Assembly: GCA_016865035.1 (NCBI GenBank)
Contig: CP018227.1
Coordinates: 1,644,001-1,708,000, forward strand
DNA from: Kordiimonadales bacterium IMCC3096
GTDB lineage: Bacteria > Pseudomonadota > Alphaproteobacteria > Minwuiales > Minwuiaceae
DNA: 64,000 nt
Direction: 5' to 3'
This document shows, piece after piece, positions 1 to 15,284 of the stretch. The notes under the pieces were generated by a model. The model searched no databases, was not told the DNA's origin, and was given only the letters and a program-made list of their open reading frames with translations. The position numbers and the translations under genes were made by a program. Each line of letters begins with the position of its first letter. The stretch's first letter is position 1.

Positions 1-1487
1 CGCTGGTCGATATCGAAGTTCACCGGCAGGAACATTTCCCGATCCGTACCCTTCAGGTTCGTCGTCAGGAACTTGGTCTGCAGGTTGAACAGCTGTTCAT
101 CGTACTCGATCAGACCTGCCTGGACATCCGCCGAGTGCTGGTCCGCCATGTCACCGGCACTGTCGACATAACCCGACTCCCAGATGCGGTTGCCATCCGG
201 ATCGGTCAGCGCGACGTTCAGCCAGATTTCCGGCTGGGCGCCAAGGCTGCCCGAAGGCAGGTTGTGCCCGGAGTTGATGTTGGTGACCAGATAGTTGAAG
301 TCGAAGTCCTGACCGACCCGCGGGCTGCCATCGAAGAACGGACCATCCAGATGGCTGCCGTTCTCCATCACCGCGCGGCGCAGTTCCCGCTTGTACTCGA
401 GACCTTCGATGTTCTCCTCGATGATCTCACGGGCCTCGAAGCGGTCGTCTTCCGAATCCCAGACTTCAGGGAACTTGACCTCGATCTCGCCATTGTAGAC
501 CTTTTCCTCGAACTCCTCGGTGCCCCACCCGGCGCGGTAGTCGAACTGCAGCCATTCATCAATGGTCCAGTTCTCTGCCGCAGGGTTGTGCGGGAAGATG
601 CCCGGGTGCGCGATCGGATAACCAGGGCCGTAGAAGGCATGGTTGTGACGGACACGGTCAGGATTGATCTCCTCACCATTCACGACAGCAGCCGGGCCGC
701 GGGCATAGCCGTTCGGCAGGCCCGGGTCCTTGCCCATGTGGCATTCCTGGCAGGTGACGCCAGCCGCATTGGCCGGGCTGTCACGATACTGGTCCCAGAC
801 AACCTCCAGCTTGATGCCGAGATTGACCGCCACCTGATGGCAGCTGACACAGAATTCCGACTCGGAGATCTGCGTGAACTTCACCACTTCCGTATGGATC
901 TGGTTGCCACGCTCCTCGTCGCTGGTTGCGACGCGATAGAAGCTCTTGTCGTCCAGAACCTTCTTCAGGCCTTCGCCGTCGGAATTGGTGTAGACCGGCG
1001 AATAGATCTTGCCCGGCTCGATGCGGCGCTCACCGTTTGCCTTGGCGTAGGTATCCTTCACGCGGTGGCAGGTGATGCAGGTGATGCCCTCGCGGGAAAC
1101 CTGGCTGCGTTCCCAGAGCGGGGCCGCACGGCTTTCACCGATCGTCGTGCCGACACTCTGGTGACAGCGCACGCAGAAGGTGCCGATCGTGCCCTGGGTC
1201 AGGTTGGTGATTGCCTGCTCGAACTTGTGGAACATCGGGGAAATCGATGCATAGGCATGGTTCGAAGACGACCATTCCTTGTAGATTTCCTCATGACATG
1301 CCGCACATTTCGAAGCACTCGGGAACACTTCCTCAGAGAAGAGTTCCGTATGGGCTGCGTCGGCGGCACTGGTCTCCTGCGCGTCAACCTGCGTTGACAC
1401 GCTGAAGAACAGCACAGCTGCGAACAGCGAAAGAAACAGACGGGCCGACTTCGTGGCTACACGATGGCCCTCAAACGCGTCTAACAT
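1..1487 (-). CDS. Multiheme cytochrome c (c554-like family), C-terminus beyond the window
   Basis: I read this frame directly on the complement: ATG at 1487, open to the left edge, so the 3' end is missing. A basic start and hydrophobic stretch (about residues 12-35, ending VDAQ) form a signal peptide, so the protein is exported. Five CXXCH heme sites follow: CAACH near 61, CVRCH 105, CITCH 137, CVSCH 213 and CQECH 246. The C-terminal half has no heme motif in view and contains SGHNLPSG, typical of the beta-rich domain at the end of c554-type multiheme cytochromes. An ideal AGGAGG lies inside the last codons of the upstream decaheme gene, whose stop is two bases before this ATG, so the two are translationally coupled. 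Likely a periplasmic electron carrier or terminal reductase/oxidase of the locus; the substrate is unknown. Confidence 0.88.
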   Translation of the reverse strand, partial: MLDAFEGHRVATKSARLFLSLFAAVLFFSVSTQVDAQETSAADAAHTELFSEEVFPSASKCAACHEEIYKEWSSSNHAYASISPMFHKFEQAITNLTQGTIGTFCVRCHQSVGTTIGESRAAPLWERSQVSREGITCITCHRVKDTYAKANGERRIEPGKIYSPVYTNSDGEGLKKVLDDKSFYRVATSDEERGNQIHTEVVKFTQISESEFCVSCHQVAVNLGIKLEVVWDQYRDSPANAAGVTCQECHMGKDPGLPNGYARGPAAVVNGEEINPDRVRHNHAFYGPGYPIAHPGIFPHNPAAENWTIDEWLQFDYRAGWGTEEFEEKVYNGEIEVKFPEVWDSEDDRFEAREIIEENIEGLEYKRELRRAVMENGSHLDGPFFDGSPRVGQDFDFNYLVTNINSGHNLPSGSLGAQPEIWLNVALTDPDGNRIWESGYVDSAGDMADQHSADVQAGLIEYDEQLFNLQTKFLTTNLKGTDREMFLPVNFDIDQ

Positions 1488-1489
1488 CC

Positions 1490-3514
1490 TCAACCTCCTT
1501 CCCTGCCGGTTTCAGATTTTCCCTGGGCTTGATGCTGAAAACCCATCGTCCGATTGAAACCTGGCTCCAGGTGGTACTCATGACAAAGCTGACAGTCCTG
1601 CCGGACCTTGCCCGCAGTATGACACTGCGTGCACGTTTCCTGCGAGACCGGCAGGAAGCCCGGAGCGAATTTCGTTGCGTCGTGTTGCTTGTATGACGCA
1701 GCGAACTCCGCCTGCAGATCCTGCTTGTGGCACGTCGTGCACAGGGTGCCCGGCCCAAGCAGGTTAACATGCGGCCTGTGGTCGTATTCGACGTACGGGC
1801 GATCAGTCACAGATTGATACCCCCATTCCACTTTCAGGCCAGTGATATTCTCGGCTGCTTCCGACCCGCCGTCGGTGACTTGGGTCACAGCGTGGCATTT
1901 CGTGCAGTTACCGAGACCGAATTCGGAGGTCAGCAGGTCGCTCAGTGCCGCCGCCTGCTCGATCACCACATCGTCCGCTTCGGCTGCCTTCGCGGCCTGT
2001 TCGGCATTCATCGCGAAGTCGAACCAGGCGCGGGCGACCGGATCGGCGTGACCACTCGGCTGATAGGTGACGGCCAGGCCATTCGATGACCAGCCGCCGC
2101 CGCGGACCTCGCTCGGCGATTCATGCTCGATCTTCTGCATCCAGGCACAGGCTGCCTGACGCAGGAGTTCACCATCCAGACCGGCGAGCATCATGCCTGT
2201 GCGGTGATCGCCGGGCAGTGCATCGATCCGGTCGAAGATTGCATCGACACCGGATTCAGCCAGTTCGGGATAGAGCGCGCCGATGGCATCCAGGTAGCCG
2301 TCCGGATCATCGTTCGCGACCCCCAGGGTCAGCGCGAGCGCCGCCGGAACATTGTCGCCATTGTCCTCGTAGAAATACTCGTCGGGCTCCAGCTCTTCCA
2401 GTTCCCCGGACTCCGCGGCTTCCCGCAGCAGTTCCACTTCCTCGGGCGTCGGGGCACAGAGTTCCGCCACCGCGTCAGGATCGAACGGGTCTTCCTCCAT
2501 GTAGGGCACATTGATGATCGCAAGCCGACGGTCGACGATTCCACTCAGATGGCAGGAAGCGCAGTTCTGGTCGAAACTGCCCGGCGGCACGGTCAGGCCG
2601 GCCTTCTCGATCTGATGGCAGTCCACACAGCCACGCGTCTCGCCAGCCGGAAGCTTCTCCGGAAAATGCTTGCTGAAGTGGCTTGTGTGATCGAAGGCAA
2701 TTGCCGGACGCATGTCGTGCGGAAAACGGTCGCCGAACGCGGGATGGTCCTTGCCGAAGGACTTGATCGACTGCACGTGGCAACTGTTGCACTGGGCATC
2801 GCGCATCGGTGCGATATTGGCTTCCTGACCCTTGTGCTCCGTGTGGCACATCACGCAGTCGGTCTTCACGTTGGCACTCGGCGAATCAGCCGCGAAGGTT
2901 GCCCCGGCCGCGGCAGTGAAGGTCGCATTGTGCGGCGACGTCGGTGAGCCACCGAAACTGTGGCAGTCGACACAGCTCTCGCCGACCGACTGGTTGGTCA
3001 CGAAGGCATTGGCCCAGGCGACGACGCCCTTGCCATGGTTCTCGTGACAGGCCGCGCAGCCCTTTTCCTCCAGCGCGAAGTTGGAATGCGCACCCGATAG
3101 CGTGCCCGGGCTGATCGAGGACAGGACTGCCTTCTCACCGACGAAGGAATCCGGCGAAAAGTGCAGGAATGCGCCGATGATCGCGATGACGAAGGTCGCT
3201 ACCAGCCAGGAGATCTGCTGGCGGCGGCGGCGCAGCGACGGGCGCGGCTTGCACGGCGGATGCGACTGACAGCAGGAGCCGTCGGGCAGCGGTCCATCCT
3301 TGCACGGCCCGCCGGCACTCGGCGGCCGACGGCATTCCCAGCGGTCACCGTTCCGGAACGGCCGGCACTCGGTCGTACCGCCGCACGAGCCATCGAAATT
3401 CGGCCCGCGGCTGCAGGGTTTGCCGAACGCGCAGGCCCGCCCGCAGACATAGGGAAACGTCGGACGCTCGTAGGCGCTCTTCTGGTAACTGAAGCGATCG
3501 GAGTCTGTAATCAT
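1490..3514 (-). CDS. Membrane-anchored decaheme cytochrome c with Cys-rich cytoplasmic N-terminus
   Basis: 674 residues. Residues 1-100 hold ten cysteines (24, 28, 34, 44, 50, 61, 71, 81, 82, 88), partly in two GP-x-x-DGSC repeats (37-44, 74-81). An RRRR stop-transfer signal and a single membrane helix (about 101-119) put this head in the cytoplasm. The rest is periplasmic with ten CXXCH sites, at 153, 181, 220, 242, 296, 318, 537, 592, 628 and 641; some are followed by extra His (CHENH, CHTEH, CHEYH) as in cytochrome c3/c7-type modules. A heme-free acidic stretch (about 325-530) separates six N-terminal from four C-terminal hemes. Its ATG overlaps the stop of the cytochrome b-like gene (ATGA). 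Inferred role: relay from the membrane subunit to periplasmic cytochromes. The head could bind Fe-S or zinc; no known fold is recognised. Confidence 0.87.
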   Translation of the reverse strand: MITDSDRFSYQKSAYERPTFPYVCGRACAFGKPCSRGPNFDGSCGGTTECRPFRNGDRWECRRPPSAGGPCKDGPLPDGSCCQSHPPCKPRPSLRRRRQQISWLVATFVIAIIGAFLHFSPDSFVGEKAVLSSISPGTLSGAHSNFALEEKGCAACHENHGKGVVAWANAFVTNQSVGESCVDCHSFGGSPTSPHNATFTAAAGATFAADSPSANVKTDCVMCHTEHKGQEANIAPMRDAQCNSCHVQSIKSFGKDHPAFGDRFPHDMRPAIAFDHTSHFSKHFPEKLPAGETRGCVDCHQIEKAGLTVPPGSFDQNCASCHLSGIVDRRLAIINVPYMEEDPFDPDAVAELCAPTPEEVELLREAAESGELEELEPDEYFYEDNGDNVPAALALTLGVANDDPDGYLDAIGALYPELAESGVDAIFDRIDALPGDHRTGMMLAGLDGELLRQAACAWMQKIEHESPSEVRGGGWSSNGLAVTYQPSGHADPVARAWFDFAMNAEQAAKAAEADDVVIEQAAALSDLLTSEFGLGNCTKCHAVTQVTDGGSEAAENITGLKVEWGYQSVTDRPYVEYDHRPHVNLLGPGTLCTTCHKQDLQAEFAASYKQHDATKFAPGFLPVSQETCTQCHTAGKVRQDCQLCHEYHLEPGFNRTMGFQHQAQGKSETGREGG

Positions 3515-4329
3515 AGCAGATACACATGCACCAGAATGATGTGCCAGATCATCACCAGAAATATACCGACGGCGAGAGGCACGTGGAAAAGAAGCCAGAT
3601 CTTGAGAAACCCGTTCACCGCATAGGCGAAATCAATGCGGTTCTTGATCTGCGCCAGATCCTCGAGCTGGCGCAGATAGGTTTCTTCCGTTTCGTCGACA
3701 TAGCGCCGCATGGCGGTGAATTCGCGCCTGATCCAGGCCCGGCCCGACTGCGCGCCGAAGAAATGGCTGAACATGAACCGCGGACGCCGGAAGAACCAGG
3801 CAAGGGTTTCGATGTAGTACTGCGCCAGCGTGTCCGAGGCGGCCTTGTCGGCGGCCTCCTCGACAATCGATTCGGCCTTGTCGCGGATGTCAGAGAGCTC
3901 GTTCGGAATGCGCTCCCAGATGATCTCCATGCCGTTGTCGGTCAGACGCTTCGGCATGATTCGCTGCAGCCAGTAACCGAGGATGCCTGACAGGCTGACC
4001 AGATAGAACAGCGCCGCGAACAGCTGCTCGTAGGCACCATCGGGCCAGAACACGCCATTGGTATGCACGAAGAACACGGCGATCGCGAAAATGCCCGCGA
4101 CGCCATGTGCCGCCGTCCAGTAGGCGCCGCGCCCGAGCGGTATCATCGACAGGCGCTTGCGCATGTTGAACAGGGTCAGAAAGACGAAGATGCCGGCAAG
4201 CGTGTAACCGGTGACAATGGCGGGCTCGCCATTGTGCAGCCAGGTCTGCCACGCATTCCAGGCAACGAGGATGAAGCCCGCGATCGCCGCGAGCCAGAAG
4301 ATGATGAGAGCGCGGTGCAGGGACCTCAT
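3511..4329 (-). CDS. Cytochrome b-like integral membrane electron-transfer subunit
   Basis: 272 residues with five hydrophobic helices: about 7-24, 37-54, 70-95, 102-124 and 240-270. A charged, soluble loop of more than 110 residues (125-238) sits between helices 4 and 5. H75 and H89 lie in helix 3 and H249 and H263 in helix 5, each pair 14 residues apart. That is the spacing expected for bis-His b-type hemes across the membrane, so up to two hemes b are plausible (inference). It starts inside the stop of the Fe-S protein gene and ends inside the start of the decaheme gene, both ATGA overlaps. It is therefore the middle gene of a tightly coupled operon and probably carries electrons between the cytoplasmic Fe-S partner and the periplasmic hemes. 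I cannot place it in a named cytochrome b family. Confidence 0.75.
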   Translation of the reverse strand: MRSLHRALIIFWLAAIAGFILVAWNAWQTWLHNGEPAIVTGYTLAGIFVFLTLFNMRKRLSMIPLGRGAYWTAAHGVAGIFAIAVFFVHTNGVFWPDGAYEQLFAALFYLVSLSGILGYWLQRIMPKRLTDNGMEIIWERIPNELSDIRDKAESIVEEAADKAASDTLAQYYIETLAWFFRRPRFMFSHFFGAQSGRAWIRREFTAMRRYVDETEETYLRQLEDLAQIKNRIDFAYAVNGFLKIWLLFHVPLAVGIFLVMIWHIILVHVYLL

Positions 4330-6002
4330 TGATAGGGACTCCTGAACGGATCCGGGCCGCGGAAGTCGACACGGCGCAGGGCGTCATGCGGACAGGCCCT
4401 CTGGCAGGCCGGGCCACCCGGATTTGTTGAGCAGAAATCGCACTTGGTCGCCTTCATGATCGGCTTGTGCTCGTCATCGACCAGCGGCTCGCCCGAAAGG
4501 TTCGCCACCTGCACCAGACGGATATTGTCGTAGGGGCAGGACGCCGCACAGGTGCCGCAGCCGATGCAGGTGTCATCATTGATGACGACCGAGCCGTCGT
4601 GCATGGAGCGATGGATCGCCCCTGTCGGACAGCCGATCATGCAGACCGGATCAGCGCAGTGCATGCATGAATTGGCGACCATCCAGTTGTCGAATGTCTG
4701 GCCGTGCCGGATGAACCGCGGGTTGCCGCCATGCGTCGAGGCGCAGGCCCGGACACAGTCATCGCAGCGGGTGCAGCGGTTCAGGTCGATCAGCATCGAC
4801 CGGGTGCCATTGATGTAGCGTCGCCCGACGGCCCATTCCTTGAGCGCGTCGGCGCTGATCTCCTCACCGGCCTGATCCTTCAGGCTGGTCCTTGGCGGCG
4901 CCATGTCGGGGAAGACGAACTCCTCCAGCACCTGGCGCGGAATGCGCAGCAGATCGACATAGCCGAGGGCCGTGAGGGAACTGCCGAAGACGATATCCGG
5001 GTCCTGATTCTTCCAGGCGTGATAGAGCTCCTCCAGCCCGAAGAAGTCCCCCGCGCCCAGATAGGTAAGCGTGCGCTCGCCATTGCCGAGATGGGTCGAG
5101 ACCCGCGCGAACCCGGCCCGCACCATCAGGATACCGTCGGGATAATCGCCCTCGTTCGCGATCGGGGTGCCATGCTCCATCTCCCGGCCCTGAGCCAGCA
5201 TGCGCTTGTAGCTGGTGTGCCAGTCGAAGGCGCCGTGGGTCTCGAACAGGGTCCTGTCCGCCACCTTCTTCAACTGCTCAGGTGACAGATGCTTGAACAT
5301 CGGTGATTCGGAGAGGGCATTGCCCAGCGCGTTGTTGCGATAGGCGGTGTCGATCTTGGTCTTCCAGGTGGGGTCGAACCGGCGCAGTTCGCGCAGTCCC
5401 TGCCAGCGAATCTCCAGCACCCGTGCCTCGGTCTCGGCAAAGACGGTTGCGGTCCGCGGAATACGGCCGAGCGCGGCAAGCTCACCGAAGATCATCTCCG
5501 GGCCGAGCTGCGCCGTCTGATGCTTGTCGAGAATGACCGGAATGTCCTGCAGGAACGATGTCGCCCCGCCGGCCGACGAAGCATGCACCTGCTGCGCCGC
5601 ATTGTTGTAGCGGTCCGGGTCGCGCACTTCGGGGCGCCACGAATTGCGCCACAGCTGACTCAGCGCCTCGAAGAAGCCCTTCTTGGAGGCGCTGGCGCGA
5701 CCGAGCAGGTTCTGGGGCAGATCCGGACTGATGACGACGCGCAGGTTGCCGTCGAGAATCAGAAAGGCCGAATTGCCGTAATCCCCTTCGCGGACGACGA
5801 TGTCGCCGGGCTGGAAATTGATGACCCTGGTATCATTGCCCAGGATGCCGCGCAGCGGCGTGTTTCCCGGGAACCGATCTTCGTCAATATCCCCGAAGAT
5901 GGGATATTTCATCAGTTCATCAATGGTCTCATCGGTCATGTCCGGCCCGAACGGTGTGGACCACCGTTGCGGACGGGCCATCGTCTCGACGGCTGTCACC
6001 AT
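4326..6002 (-). CDS. Cyclic-nucleotide-binding / tetra-[4Fe-4S] ferredoxin fusion protein
   Basis: 558 residues, no signal peptide, so cytoplasmic. First cNMP domain about 60-205: PGDIVVREGD near 65 and a phosphate-binding cassette FGELAAL...RIPRTATV near 172-187 with the canonical Glu and Arg. It is interrupted by an insertion at about 95-165. Second cNMP-like domain about 230-365: IANEGDYPDG near 281 and GDFFGLEEL near 318, with a degenerate cassette. Residues 405-540 form a HybA/NrfC-type ferredoxin module with four cysteine sets: 410/413/416/420, 446/449/454/458, 479/482/485/489 and 521/524/533/537, enough for four [4Fe-4S] clusters. A GGAGGG lies 10 bases before the ATG. It is followed with overlap by the cytochrome b-like gene. 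Inference: a cyclic-nucleotide-gated electron donor or acceptor for the membrane cytochromes. Confidence 0.88.
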   Translation of the reverse strand: MVTAVETMARPQRWSTPFGPDMTDETIDELMKYPIFGDIDEDRFPGNTPLRGILGNDTRVINFQPGDIVVREGDYGNSAFLILDGNLRVVISPDLPQNLLGRASASKKGFFEALSQLWRNSWRPEVRDPDRYNNAAQQVHASSAGGATSFLQDIPVILDKHQTAQLGPEMIFGELAALGRIPRTATVFAETEARVLEIRWQGLRELRRFDPTWKTKIDTAYRNNALGNALSESPMFKHLSPEQLKKVADRTLFETHGAFDWHTSYKRMLAQGREMEHGTPIANEGDYPDGILMVRAGFARVSTHLGNGERTLTYLGAGDFFGLEELYHAWKNQDPDIVFGSSLTALGYVDLLRIPRQVLEEFVFPDMAPPRTSLKDQAGEEISADALKEWAVGRRYINGTRSMLIDLNRCTRCDDCVRACASTHGGNPRFIRHGQTFDNWMVANSCMHCADPVCMIGCPTGAIHRSMHDGSVVINDDTCIGCGTCAASCPYDNIRLVQVANLSGEPLVDDEHKPIMKATKCDFCSTNPGGPACQRACPHDALRRVDFRGPDPFRSPYQ

Positions 6003-6139
6003 CTGATCTCAACCCTCCACTGATGCCCATCGCCACACATCGTTCACGTGTGTGCACCCGGAACATCAACCCCTTTTCCCAGCGTCAACAATACCGGCCT
6101 GGATGGCAAGCCCCCGCATGCCGGTACCGGGTGAAACGT

Positions 6140-6176
6140 GGGCGAGGTGGTGCCATATGGCTACACCACCCCGCCC
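6140..6176 (-). terminator. Strong hairpin between the tetraheme cytochrome gene and the Fe-S/cytochrome genes
   Basis: A 13-bp stem with one mismatch (6140-6152 with 6164-6176, GGGCG.GGTGGTG) closes over an 11-base loop that contains CCATATGG. It lies 26 bases past the tetraheme stop in the direction of transcription and has no T-run. It may be a partial terminator or a 3'-stabilising hairpin that leaves the first cytochrome more highly expressed than the four genes behind it (inference). Confidence 0.55.
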
Positions 6177-6201
6177 GTCCGTTCCGATCGTGAGCGGACG
6201 C

Positions 6202-7179
6202 CTACTTGTAGGTAGAGGGCGCCGGCAGCATCGAACCGACCTGGCCGGTCAGATCCATCTGCTCGCTGTAGATCTTCGCCACCAGAGCGCGGGCATTGGC
6301 CTCGCTCGGGTCCGCGATCAGCGCCTCGGCCTCCGGCAGACCGGTTGCCTTCAGCGCCGCCTTGGCCTTCTCCGCACGCTCCTGCTGCACACCGACATAC
6401 TTGGCATGATCGGTCTTGCCCATGGCGTTGCTGGCCTGAACAAGCGAGGCAGCCTGACCGGTGACGAACCAGCGGGACTTCTCGGCCTCGCTCATTTCCT
6501 CATTGTCGGTCGCGCTGTTGTAGAAGCGGTGACGCACCTGACCCTGGCTGTACTGCACCAGCTCGAAGGACGCCTTCAGCGGATGACCCGCGTCGAGCAT
6601 CTTGCCGGCAGTGTCGCCATCCAGGCTGTCCCGCGCCATGCCGTGGCAGTTGAAGCAGTTCGCGGCCACGTCGAAGTTGATGTCGGCAGGCATCGCGGGG
6701 ATGTCCTGGCGCCAGCGCGGCCAGCGCATGCCCGCGTCACGGGACTTCTGATACCGCTCGTTCTTGTGGGCATCGGATTCGTCAGCCTTCTTGGTGCCCT
6801 TCGGCCCATAGACATTGTGAATCTCGATGAACTCGGAACCCGGGCCGTGACAGCTCTCGCACGACGGGCCGAAGTTGTTGCCGACACGTCCGCCGGGCTT
6901 CTTCGGCGCCTGCGTATAGTGACACTGGCCGCAGGTGTCGGAGCGCTTCATGCTCCGCTCGCCCAGCGCATCCGTGACCTTGTCGGCAAGATCCCGCTTG
7001 TGGATATCCTTGTACGACTCGGCGTGCGGCGTGTTTTCCCACACCTTGTATTCCGGCGAATGACAATCCTTGCAGGCATCGGGTCCGACATTGGTCGGCT
7101 GCGCGTTGACCGCAGCACCTGCCACCATGAAGCCTGCCGCCGCGAACAGCGCCAGGCCGAATTTGCGTAGTCCAGACAT
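6202..7179 (-). CDS. Periplasmic tetraheme cytochrome c (cytochrome c554 family)
   Basis: 325 residues from the ATG at 7179. This start is chosen because MSGLRKFG followed by a hydrophobic core and AVNAQ makes a clean signal peptide, and AAGGGG lies upstream; the reading frame runs further upstream but without a signal-like sequence. Four CXXCH motifs: CKDCH at 36, CGQCH 83, CESCH 107 and CFNCH 175, in the order and spacing of c554-type tetraheme proteins. The heme-free C-terminus is helical and rich in Ala and Glu. It is the first gene of the leftward redox cluster and is divergent from the TPR gene at 7384, so the promoter should lie in 7180-7383. Likely a soluble electron shuttle for the decaheme and pentaheme partners; the physiological donor or acceptor is unknown. 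Confidence 0.87.
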   Translation of the reverse strand: MSGLRKFGLALFAAAGFMVAGAAVNAQPTNVGPDACKDCHSPEYKVWENTPHAESYKDIHKRDLADKVTDALGERSMKRSDTCGQCHYTQAPKKPGGRVGNNFGPSCESCHGPGSEFIEIHNVYGPKGTKKADESDAHKNERYQKSRDAGMRWPRWRQDIPAMPADINFDVAANCFNCHGMARDSLDGDTAGKMLDAGHPLKASFELVQYSQGQVRHRFYNSATDNEEMSEAEKSRWFVTGQAASLVQASNAMGKTDHAKYVGVQQERAEKAKAALKATGLPEAEALIADPSEANARALVAKIYSEQMDLTGQVGSMLPAPSTYK

Positions 7180-7383: not shown

Positions 7384-7719
7384 ATGCGCAACACATTGAA
7401 CCGGAGATCCGGTGGAGGCTGGCTGATCGTGGTGGCCGTGGCGGCGACCCTTGGCGCGGCGGCCTATGGATACAGCGCAACCACCGCCGGTCAGGCTGAC
7501 CGCGGGGCATTGCCGGCCTCGGCAAGCATCGCCGAGCTGGCGAGCGCGACCGAACGTGATCCGGGCAATGCCGCGCTCTGGAAACAACTGGCACAGGCCC
7601 ATCGCCGTGCGGGCGACCGGCCCGCCGCAATCTCGGCCCTGGTCCGCGCCGCCCGCCTCACGCCGGATGACCGGGAAATCAATGCTGCACTGCGGGACCT
7701 GTCGGACCGCCGTCCCTGA
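7384..7719 (+). CDS. Small membrane-anchored TPR protein
   Basis: 111 residues. After a short basic N-terminus a hydrophobic segment (about 12-32) anchors or exports the protein. Residues 46-105 form about one and a half tetratricopeptide repeats (ERDPGNAALWKQLAQAHRRA, then a second helix pair). This resembles the C-terminal TPR part of CcmH/NrfG-type cytochrome c maturation proteins but is far shorter. GGAGCAGG sits directly before the ATG. It is divergent from the tetraheme gene, so a role in assembling the multiheme cytochromes is possible (inference from context and fold). An antisense frame (7363-7785) is less convincing. Confidence 0.6.
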   Translation: MRNTLNRRSGGGWLIVVAVAATLGAAAYGYSATTAGQADRGALPASASIAELASATERDPGNAALWKQLAQAHRRAGDRPAAISALVRAARLTPDDREINAALRDLSDRRP

Positions 7720-8021: not shown

Positions 8022-9143
8022 GTGAACCATAAGCACCTGCTCGCTGGTGTTGCAGCTACTGCGCTGCTGACCGCCGGCTCCGCGTTTGCTGCGTCGCATA
8101 GTGGCGACCAGCTCCAGGCTCAGGCCGCCATGATCGACGCTCTGTCGAAGAAGGTGGAACAGCTGAGTGCCAACCAGGACGGCGTTGCCAAGGGTGTCAA
8201 GGGCGTCAGCCTGAAGGTGTCCGGCCAGGTCAACCGCGCCGTGATGTTCGTCAGCGACGGCAATGACAAGTCCGCGTTCAACTATGTTGACAACGACGCC
8301 TCTTCGACCCGCGTTCGCTGGGATGCCTCGGCCAACGTTTCCGATTCCACCAAGGTCGGTACCCGTCTCGAGATGGAAATGGAATCCAACACGTCCGCTG
8401 GTGCGGTCCTGAACGGCAACGCCGGTGGTAACGCTTTCGTTGCCCGCCATGCGTATGTCTACATCCAGGGCGGCTTCGGCACGCTGACCACCGGTCAGCA
8501 GGGTGAGGCGACTGAAGGCCTGCTGCACAGCTCCTTCAACTACGCGTCCCTGGCCGCGATCAACCCGGAAGACACCACCGGTATCGCCAACGCCGGCGTG
8601 AACTTCCTGTCGTTCGGTGACGGTGGCCGTCAGGATGCGATCCGCTATGACACCCCGAGCTTCGGTGGTGCCAAGGCATCCATCTCGACCCGTGACAACG
8701 GTGAAGTGACCGCTGCCATCCGTTATGCCGGTCAGGTTGCCGGTCTGGGCGTTCTCGCTGCCCTTGGCTACGAAGCCAACCCGGGTGCCGGTAACGATCC
8801 GCTGGTCGCCGGTTCCATGGGCATCAACTTCGGTGTTGTCGCGCTGAACGGCTCCTTCGGTACCGAGCTGGATGACGACAACAACGACCGTTTCTACTAC
8901 GCCCTGGGCCTCGCCCATAAGGGTTCGTATGTGGACATGGGCCCGACCTCGCTGGGCGTGCAGTACATGTCCAACAACGGTGGCTTTGACGGCCAGGGCA
9001 ACGTGTACAGCGTTGGCTTCGGTCTGGTGCAGGGTGTCGCGGCTGGTGCCGAGGCCTATGCCCAGCTGACCTTCCACGGTGGTAACGAAGGCGCCGTCGG
9101 CGACGCCGTCGCCAGCATGGTTGGTATGCGCGTCAAGTTCTGA
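8022..9143 (+). CDS. Outer-membrane porin (Gram-negative porin family)
   Basis: 373 residues starting at GTG 8022, eight bases after a perfect AGGAGGG. The signal peptide ends SAFAASHS. A short coiled-coil (about 28-60, QAQAAMIDALSKKVEQLSANQ-like heptads) is followed by alternating beta-strands rich in Gly, Asn and Asp. It ends with an aromatic residue, MRVKF, the Omp85-recognised C-terminus of porins. Codon use is highly biased (GTT, GGT, CTG), unlike its neighbours, which suggests strong expression. It forms general diffusion pores for small hydrophilic solutes; substrate preference cannot be told. Its TGA overlaps the ATG of the small lipoprotein gene, and a strong terminator follows that gene, so the two form one transcript. 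Confidence 0.9.
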   Translation: MNHKHLLAGVAATALLTAGSAFAASHSGDQLQAQAAMIDALSKKVEQLSANQDGVAKGVKGVSLKVSGQVNRAVMFVSDGNDKSAFNYVDNDASSTRVRWDASANVSDSTKVGTRLEMEMESNTSAGAVLNGNAGGNAFVARHAYVYIQGGFGTLTTGQQGEATEGLLHSSFNYASLAAINPEDTTGIANAGVNFLSFGDGGRQDAIRYDTPSFGGAKASISTRDNGEVTAAIRYAGQVAGLGVLAALGYEANPGAGNDPLVAGSMGINFGVVALNGSFGTELDDDNNDRFYYALGLAHKGSYVDMGPTSLGVQYMSNNGGFDGQGNVYSVGFGLVQGVAAGAEAYAQLTFHGGNEGAVGDAVASMVGMRVKF

Positions 9144-15014: not shown

Positions 15015-15038
15015 GATTCTTCAACGTTCCGGACGCGG

Positions 15039-15284
15039 CGGGCTGGCCGACCCGGCCAACCCCAGCCCAGTGCCACGGCTTGCGGCACCGGCGGCGTTCA
15101 CCGGAGACGGCGGGCTGGCCGACCCGGCCAACCCCAGCCCAGTGCCCCGGCTTGCGGCACCGGCGGCGTTCACTGGAGACGGCGGGCTGGCCGACCCGGC
15201 CAACCCCAGCCCAGTGCCCCGGCTTGCGGCACCGGCGGCGTTCACTGGAGACGGCGGGCTGGCCGACCCGGCCAACCCCAGCCC
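15039..15284. repeat. 72-bp tandem repeat, about 3.4 copies, with internal hairpins
   Basis: Units begin at 15039, 15111, 15183 and 15255, exactly 72 bases apart; the fourth stops after 30 bases. Copies differ only at a few positions (for example CACGG/CCCGG, CACCGG/CACTGG). Each unit contains GGGCTGG...CCAGCCC and GTGCC...GGCAC inverted repeats. Because 72 is divisible by three, all frames stay open, but no start or codon bias supports a protein. The rest of the gap 14756-15295 holds the REP-like element and the terminator listed separately. Confidence 0.95.

Follow-up and report, generated by a model that had tools for sequence, protein, structure and literature searches.

We identified, in a relative of Minwuia (Alphaproteobacteria), an operon of seven genes that is real, conserved, larger than first reported and already named as the putative conduit cluster PCC4. 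We put at roughly one half the probability that it encodes a PCC4-type trans-envelope conduit joining cytoplasmic NAD(P)H to the periplasm and outer membrane, with outward electron flow favoured in this host. The window, the whole stretch of DNA that was analysed, spans 64,000 nucleotides (C1:1644001-1708000 of a complete 4.29 Mb genome); positions without the prefix C1 are counted within it, and all seven genes are on the minus strand.

In transcription order, the operon begins with a periplasmic tetraheme c-type cytochrome (g1, 6202..7179, start ATG at 7179), followed by a cytoplasmic protein that combines two cNMP domains with four [4Fe-4S] motifs (g2, 4326..6002), a five-helix inner-membrane protein (g3, 3511..4329), an inner-membrane-anchored decaheme c-type cytochrome (g4, 1490..3514) and a pentaheme c-type cytochrome (g5, 1..1487), which the window edge cuts. 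The first-pass annotation had placed these five genes correctly and they are real, but they are not the full set: it counted five because the window's left edge interrupts the operon. Beyond that edge, on the same strand, g5 ends after a further 288 bases (C1:1643712) and is followed by a predicted outer-membrane barrel (g6, C1:1642103-1643641) and an FAD/NAD/[2Fe-2S] reductase (g7, C1:1640738-1642018). The tight junctions noted earlier for the last four of the five genes are indeed there, with ATGA overlaps at g2/g3 and g3/g4 and a two-base gap between g4 and g5; the ATG of g5 at 1487 (alternatively a TTG at 1493) is preceded by AAGGAGG. Among complete homologues drawn from 80 named loci, g1 has 4 heme motifs in 66/70, g4 has 10 in 70/72 and g5 has 5 in 55/58, and comparison with the two closest Minwuia loci gives dN/dS values of 0.005-0.094 across the seven genes, with g2 and g7 lowest. 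These held heme counts and low ratios exclude a chance origin.

Searches for CRP/FNR boxes 5' of g1, in the host and four relatives, and for sigma-70-type promoters returned no match, and no match was found that would indicate plasmid carriage of the operon. The g1-g2 spacer (6003-6201) folds as RNA better than its shuffles (z -2.65) and holds one weak terminator-like site; it may permit separate levels of g1 and the remaining genes. Two divergently transcribed genes adjoin the operon, encoding a small TPR-like protein (7384-7719) and a Gram-negative porin (8022-9143, PF13609), and an intergenic tandem repeat of 72 bases (3.6 copies, 97% identity) occupies 15029-15284. Outside the window, a CRP/FNR-type cNMP domain is encoded about 1.2 kb from one of the host's two heme-copper oxidase genes (C1:3347697-3350450), perhaps marking a low-oxygen regulatory spot.

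The cytoplasmic protein g2 is the cNMP-ferredoxin fusion that had been described initially, combining two cNMP domains with 16 cysteines arranged as four [4Fe-4S] motifs; its Pfam matches include PF00027 (93 bits) and PF13247 (36 bits, above cut-off). The 16 cysteines, which lie in the ferredoxin part (4365..4799), are kept in 103-104 of 104 homologues. cNMP domain 1 (5361..5819) is split by a large insertion and carries the cassette FGELAALGRIPRTATV, in which F172, G173, E174, A177, R180 and R183 are identical in 104/104 homologues. In known cNMP domains, the cassette Glu and Arg (here Glu174 and Arg183) contact ribose and phosphate, and the presence of both residues is what is looked for in a cyclic-nucleotide-responsive protein. 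Domain 2 (4914..5186, PF00027 at residues 273-363) is degenerate: it lacks the equivalent cassette Arg, and its cassette varies among homologues. The two domains could instead be ligand-free structural relics in an otherwise unregulated conduit, as the decay of domain 2 and the insertion in domain 1 would allow, yet the invariance of Glu174 and Arg183 and the recurrence of cNMP domains in fused sister proteins run counter to this, and we consider it rather doubtful. Judging from the intact cassette of domain 1, gating of the conduit by a cyclic nucleotide may be proposed. A family search found 16 class III cyclase domains in the host genome, making a ligand for g2 plausible.

The reductase g7 (426 aa) consists of an N-terminal membrane helix, an FAD/NAD domain and a C-terminal [2Fe-2S] domain, and falls in the NADH-oxidising class of flavohemoprotein, NqrF and phthalate dioxygenase reductase. 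A second type of flavoprotein accompanies the cNMP-ferredoxin module in other Pseudomonadota, where six loci (L146-L150, L153) encode a Pyr_redox_3 NAD(P)H flavoprotein fused to two cNMP domains and Fer4. This fusion gene is followed by one for a membrane protein with two WX3HX13H motifs in L146-L148, whereas in L149 and L150 the membrane protein is itself fused on; in L153 it was not called. A decaheme cytochrome with an FHA-like cytoplasmic domain is encoded nearby. These sister sets thus share with the present one an NAD(P)H flavoprotein, two cNMP domains, Fer4, a WX3HX13H protein and a decaheme, but their flavoprotein is fused and of a fold unrelated to g7, and they have no g1, g5 or g6 nearby. 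That two different flavoprotein folds stand beside the same type of cNMP-FeS module suggests that the partner in the cytoplasm is NAD(P)H, and the fusions lend domain-fusion support to a step from flavoprotein to Fe-S clusters. It is possible, if on the doubtful side, that the separate-subunit PCC4 and the fused form are two versions of one NAD(P)H-driven conduit family that is allosterically switched by a cyclic nucleotide; we know of no electron-transfer chain that is gated in this way. In a survey of Gallionellaceae, 27 genomes of iron oxidisers are listed with a ten-heme 'Forkhead-associated protein' (PMC10734462), which is perhaps the FHA-decaheme of the sister sets.

As the first-pass annotation had it, g4 is a membrane-anchored decaheme cytochrome, with a cytoplasmic N-terminus, one membrane helix and ten CxxCH motifs, the latter kept in 95-101 of 102 homologues. 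By profile, part of it is weakly similar (E 1e-6) to 6r2q_A, which we take to be MtrA, although the structure-database label differs. The cytoplasmic N-terminus is an eight-Cys domain (3251..3445) whose Cys 24, 34, 44, 50, 61, 71, 81 and 88 are kept in 97-100 of 102 homologues. This tail is absent from the decahemes of the two loci without g2. In one of them (L048), which has a seven-gene-like set without g2 and g7, a PF16697 (FHA-like) domain replaces the tail (L048:7273-9411); in the other (L152), the decaheme starts at the membrane helix, and g6 and g5 diverge from a Fer2-FAD-NAD gene, g1, g3 and g4. Two loci are suggestive of a coupling between the eight-Cys tail and g2.

Five hydrophobic segments and two WX3HX13H motifs back the proposal that g3 is a b-type membrane subunit. 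The protein also carries an SGILG motif, which fits SGXXG, and a large loop that is predicted to be cytoplasmic. Its four motif histidines (H75/H89 and H249/H263) are invariant in 19 diverse homologues and are predicted to hold two b hemes. Two His pairs of this type are the two-heme-b pattern of cytochrome b and ferric reductases, and WX3HX13H pairs are found in quinone-active cytochromes b as well. g3 belongs to no known family, with no Pfam match at E 0.01, PF01794 included, and only chance matches by sequence in the PDB.

All seven genes are linked in 42/48 well-flanked loci from several phyla, and g2-g3-g4 are present in 48/48. In the remaining six (L080, L083, L086, L121, L127, L128), this core occurs without linked g5 and g6, indicating that the inner part can stand apart from the outer one. 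The genes occur in several orders, among them 1234567, 5612347 and 5671234, and in most of the loci L026-L049 the seven are neighbours, with heme counts of 4, 10 and 5. The decaheme gene is present in 7/7 sampled genomes of the genus, 0/2 other genera of the family and 23/289 genomes of the class (3 of them weakly), the cNMP-ferredoxin gene in 20/289. The co-occurrence of these two genes, which had been put forward as a check on the original proposal, holds: 19/20 class genomes with the cNMP-ferredoxin also have the decaheme (E < 1e-30), and the genes are adjacent. The exceptions are a genome with the variant locus L048 described above, which lacks g2 (G127), and a 74% complete bin (G134). A scan of 84,980 species genomes recovered 397 stretches coding for g2 relatives, which occur, among others, in marine nitrite oxidisers and in heterotrophs. 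Among the best 80 of the 397 are Minwuia thermotolerans, many Alpha-, Beta- and Gammaproteobacteria, Nitrospinaceae, Verrucomicrobia, SAR324, Zixibacteria, Poribacteria and Omnitrophica; almost every one is a MAG, and isolated odd taxa may therefore reflect binning errors. In a tree of g2, Nitrospinota and Verrucomicrobiota each cluster amid Pseudomonadota, a pattern that neither proves nor excludes transfer.

The path suggested at first, which leads from [4Fe-4S] clusters in the cytoplasm via a membrane subunit to periplasmic or outer cytochromes, is borne out by these loci as linked and conserved. From the gene content, linkage, cofactor motifs and conservation that are read in the sequence, we infer an order of transfer, a direction, an acceptor and a mode of regulation. 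NADH would reduce the FAD and [2Fe-2S] of the membrane-anchored g7, which would pass electrons to the four [4Fe-4S] clusters of g2; at this step, the eight-Cys tail of g4 may contribute a further cluster or a docking site. The electrons would then cross the inner membrane over the two b hemes of g3, enter the ten c hemes of g4, and move on to the tetraheme g1 and the pentaheme g5 and from these to the barrel g6 or the cell surface. Domain 1 of g2 would probably tune the cytoplasmic entry step as a cyclic-nucleotide sensor. Outward flow in this host would, when oxygen is low, dump the reducing power of NADH on an acceptor outside the cell or in the periplasm.

The direction is inferred from three points. 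Family searches found no RuBisCO and two heme-copper oxidases in the host genome, and NAD+ reduction by donors at the Fe(II) level is a strongly uphill reaction. Outward flow through g3 would cost membrane potential and thus would not by itself be an energy-conserving respiration, so redox disposal or electron transfer to an external acceptor is a better fit than energy conservation. As published, PCC4 is instead a system of uptake, in which electrons from extracellular Fe(II) or Mn(II) would pass through the outer cytochromes to g4, g3 and the quinone pool, a model proposed from iron-oxidising hosts and their habitats (He et al. 2017, PMC5566968); g2 and g7 could then divert some electrons to cytoplasmic carriers. 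The occurrence of the set in autotrophs and chemolithotrophs such as Nitrospina and, according to He et al., in iron oxidisers suits uptake and counts against the outward model, and the WX3HX13H pairs of g3 are common to quinone-active cytochromes b. A quinone-only route, however, needs neither an invariant cytoplasmic Fe-S protein nor an NADH reductase, and the thermodynamic barrier and the missing RuBisCO named above also weigh against uptake in this host, where we think it unlikely. The cNMP cassette, the eight-Cys tail and the flavoprotein fusions favour an NAD(P)H-linked, possibly nucleotide-regulated path over the quinone model.

The outer components bear on whether electrons leave the cell. 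With a signal peptide and the four CxxCH motifs already counted in the first annotation, g1 belongs to the cytochrome c554 family (PF13435, 49.8 bits), and its nearest structure is cytochrome c554 itself (1bvb; profile, E 3e-13). The 'pentaheme-or-larger' cytochrome turns out to be pentaheme and no larger, as the complete g5 (593 aa) has exactly 5 CxxCH motifs. Its nearest structure is 5ze8, the pentaheme cytochrome c552 of Thermochromatium tepidum (profile E 1e-14), which its predicted model, a weak one (pLDDT 61) used for this match only, also matches; the C-terminal half of g5 is large, conserved and heme-free. The N-terminus of g5 in two Nitrospinaceae loci (L091 and L101) resembles a lipoprotein signal, with a Cys after the hydrophobic stretch, which would tether g5 to a membrane there. 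The barrel g6 (512 aa) has a signal peptide and a C-terminal Phe that is nearly invariant in homologues. It is predicted to form 18-19 strands with an OprD/MOMP fold (pLDDT 75.8), and the best fold matches of the model are MOMP, OccK/OprD-type porins and AlgE, with Z about 26 to MOMP and the OccK porins; by sequence, g6 has only chance matches in the PDB. MtrB is absent among the fold matches listed, an absence that is no exclusion. In its predicted fold, g6 thus looks like an ordinary substrate porin and not visibly like MtrB, which argues against a conduit, and the six of 48 loci without linked g5 and g6 argue against a seven-gene wire, since the outer part can be missing from the neighbourhood of the inner one.

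These features would suit a small-molecule reductase, in which NADH electrons would end at periplasmic g1 and g5, g6 would admit the substrate and no electrons would leave the cell. Besides the resemblance of g6 to substrate-specific porins, both g1 and g5 are related to cytochrome c554 and other nitrogen- and sulfur-cycle cytochromes, and the heme-free half of g5 could bind substrate. A porin-like fold is nevertheless to be expected of most 18-strand barrels and so is little informative, and the heme motifs listed for g1 and g5 are all CxxCH, with no unusual catalytic-type motif seen in either, leaving this explanation distinctly unlikely. An unnamed new complex, finally, was rejected because the gene set matches PCC4 subgroup II.

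If NAD(P)H does feed the set, its conserved cytoplasmic half (NADH reductase, cNMP-ferredoxin and eight-Cys tail) would amount to an alternative model of PCC4 that bypasses the quinone pool, a direct line from NAD(P)H to the outside that may obey a second messenger. Should the gating be true, a second messenger would directly decide the export of cytoplasmic reducing power. As g2 relatives are widespread, reading the electron flow in the wrong direction would lead to many uncultured bacteria being taken for iron oxidisers in error.

We compared the set with known systems. Like MtrAB, MtoAB and PioAB, it combines a decaheme cytochrome with an outer-membrane barrel. In those systems, however, the decaheme is soluble or lipid-anchored and is inserted in the barrel, whereas g4 has an inner-membrane helix, and the MtrB barrel has 26 to 28 strands against the 18-19 predicted for g6. 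Cytochrome c552 of T. tepidum is pentaheme like g5, but g5 is longer and the identity is low. The proposed path would be analogous to that of NOX/FRD proteins, from NAD(P)H through FAD and two b hemes on HX13H pairs to the far side of the membrane; it differs in that g3 lacks PF01794 and in that separate subunits, Fe-S clusters and c hemes would take part.

The closest likeness is to PCC4, the tentative name given by He, Barco, Emerson and Roden in 2017 to a putative conduit cluster that comprises a porin, cytochromes with 4, 5 and 10 hemes, a conserved protein of the inner membrane and further redox proteins (PMC5566968), so the complex is not the undescribed one that the first-pass annotation took it for; an earlier description under a name was what that annotation had itself given as grounds for refutation. 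The main text of the paper describes membrane proteins with five TM segments, two WX3HX13H motifs and SGXXG, for which an exchange of electrons with quinone was proposed. It distinguishes two subgroups: in subgroup II, a pfam13247 Fe-S gene lies upstream of the gene for the membrane protein, whereas subgroup I (Hyphomicrobium) has no such gene, its genes run in other directions and the domains of its accessory redox gene are arranged differently (PMC5566968). Subgroup I, which L152 resembles, shares g1, g3, g4, g5, g6 and the Fer2-FAD-NAD gene with the present set, without the cNMP-ferredoxin and eight-Cys tail and with other gene directions and reductase domain order. Set against the published description, the operon agrees with subgroup II in almost all the features compared: three multiheme cytochromes with 4, 5 and 10 motifs, an outer-membrane porin (the predicted g6 barrel), a five-TM protein with SGXXG and two WX3HX13H motifs (g3), and a PF13247 gene directly upstream of it (g2, overlapping g3 by ATGA). 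The accessory redox gene is described as preceding g1 in subgroup II, whereas g7 comes last here, after the barrel; a g7-type gene precedes g1 in L033, L043-L047 and others. All three cytochromes are called periplasmic in the main text, whereas g4 appears to be anchored in the inner membrane, and flow is modelled there from an external donor to quinone, with no mention of NADH entry or of the eight-Cys tail (PMC5566968). Neither that text nor the literature searched mentions cNMP domains in the Fe-S protein. The cNMP domains, the eight-Cys tail and the NADH-linked features are newly recognised candidate features of PCC4 subgroup II.
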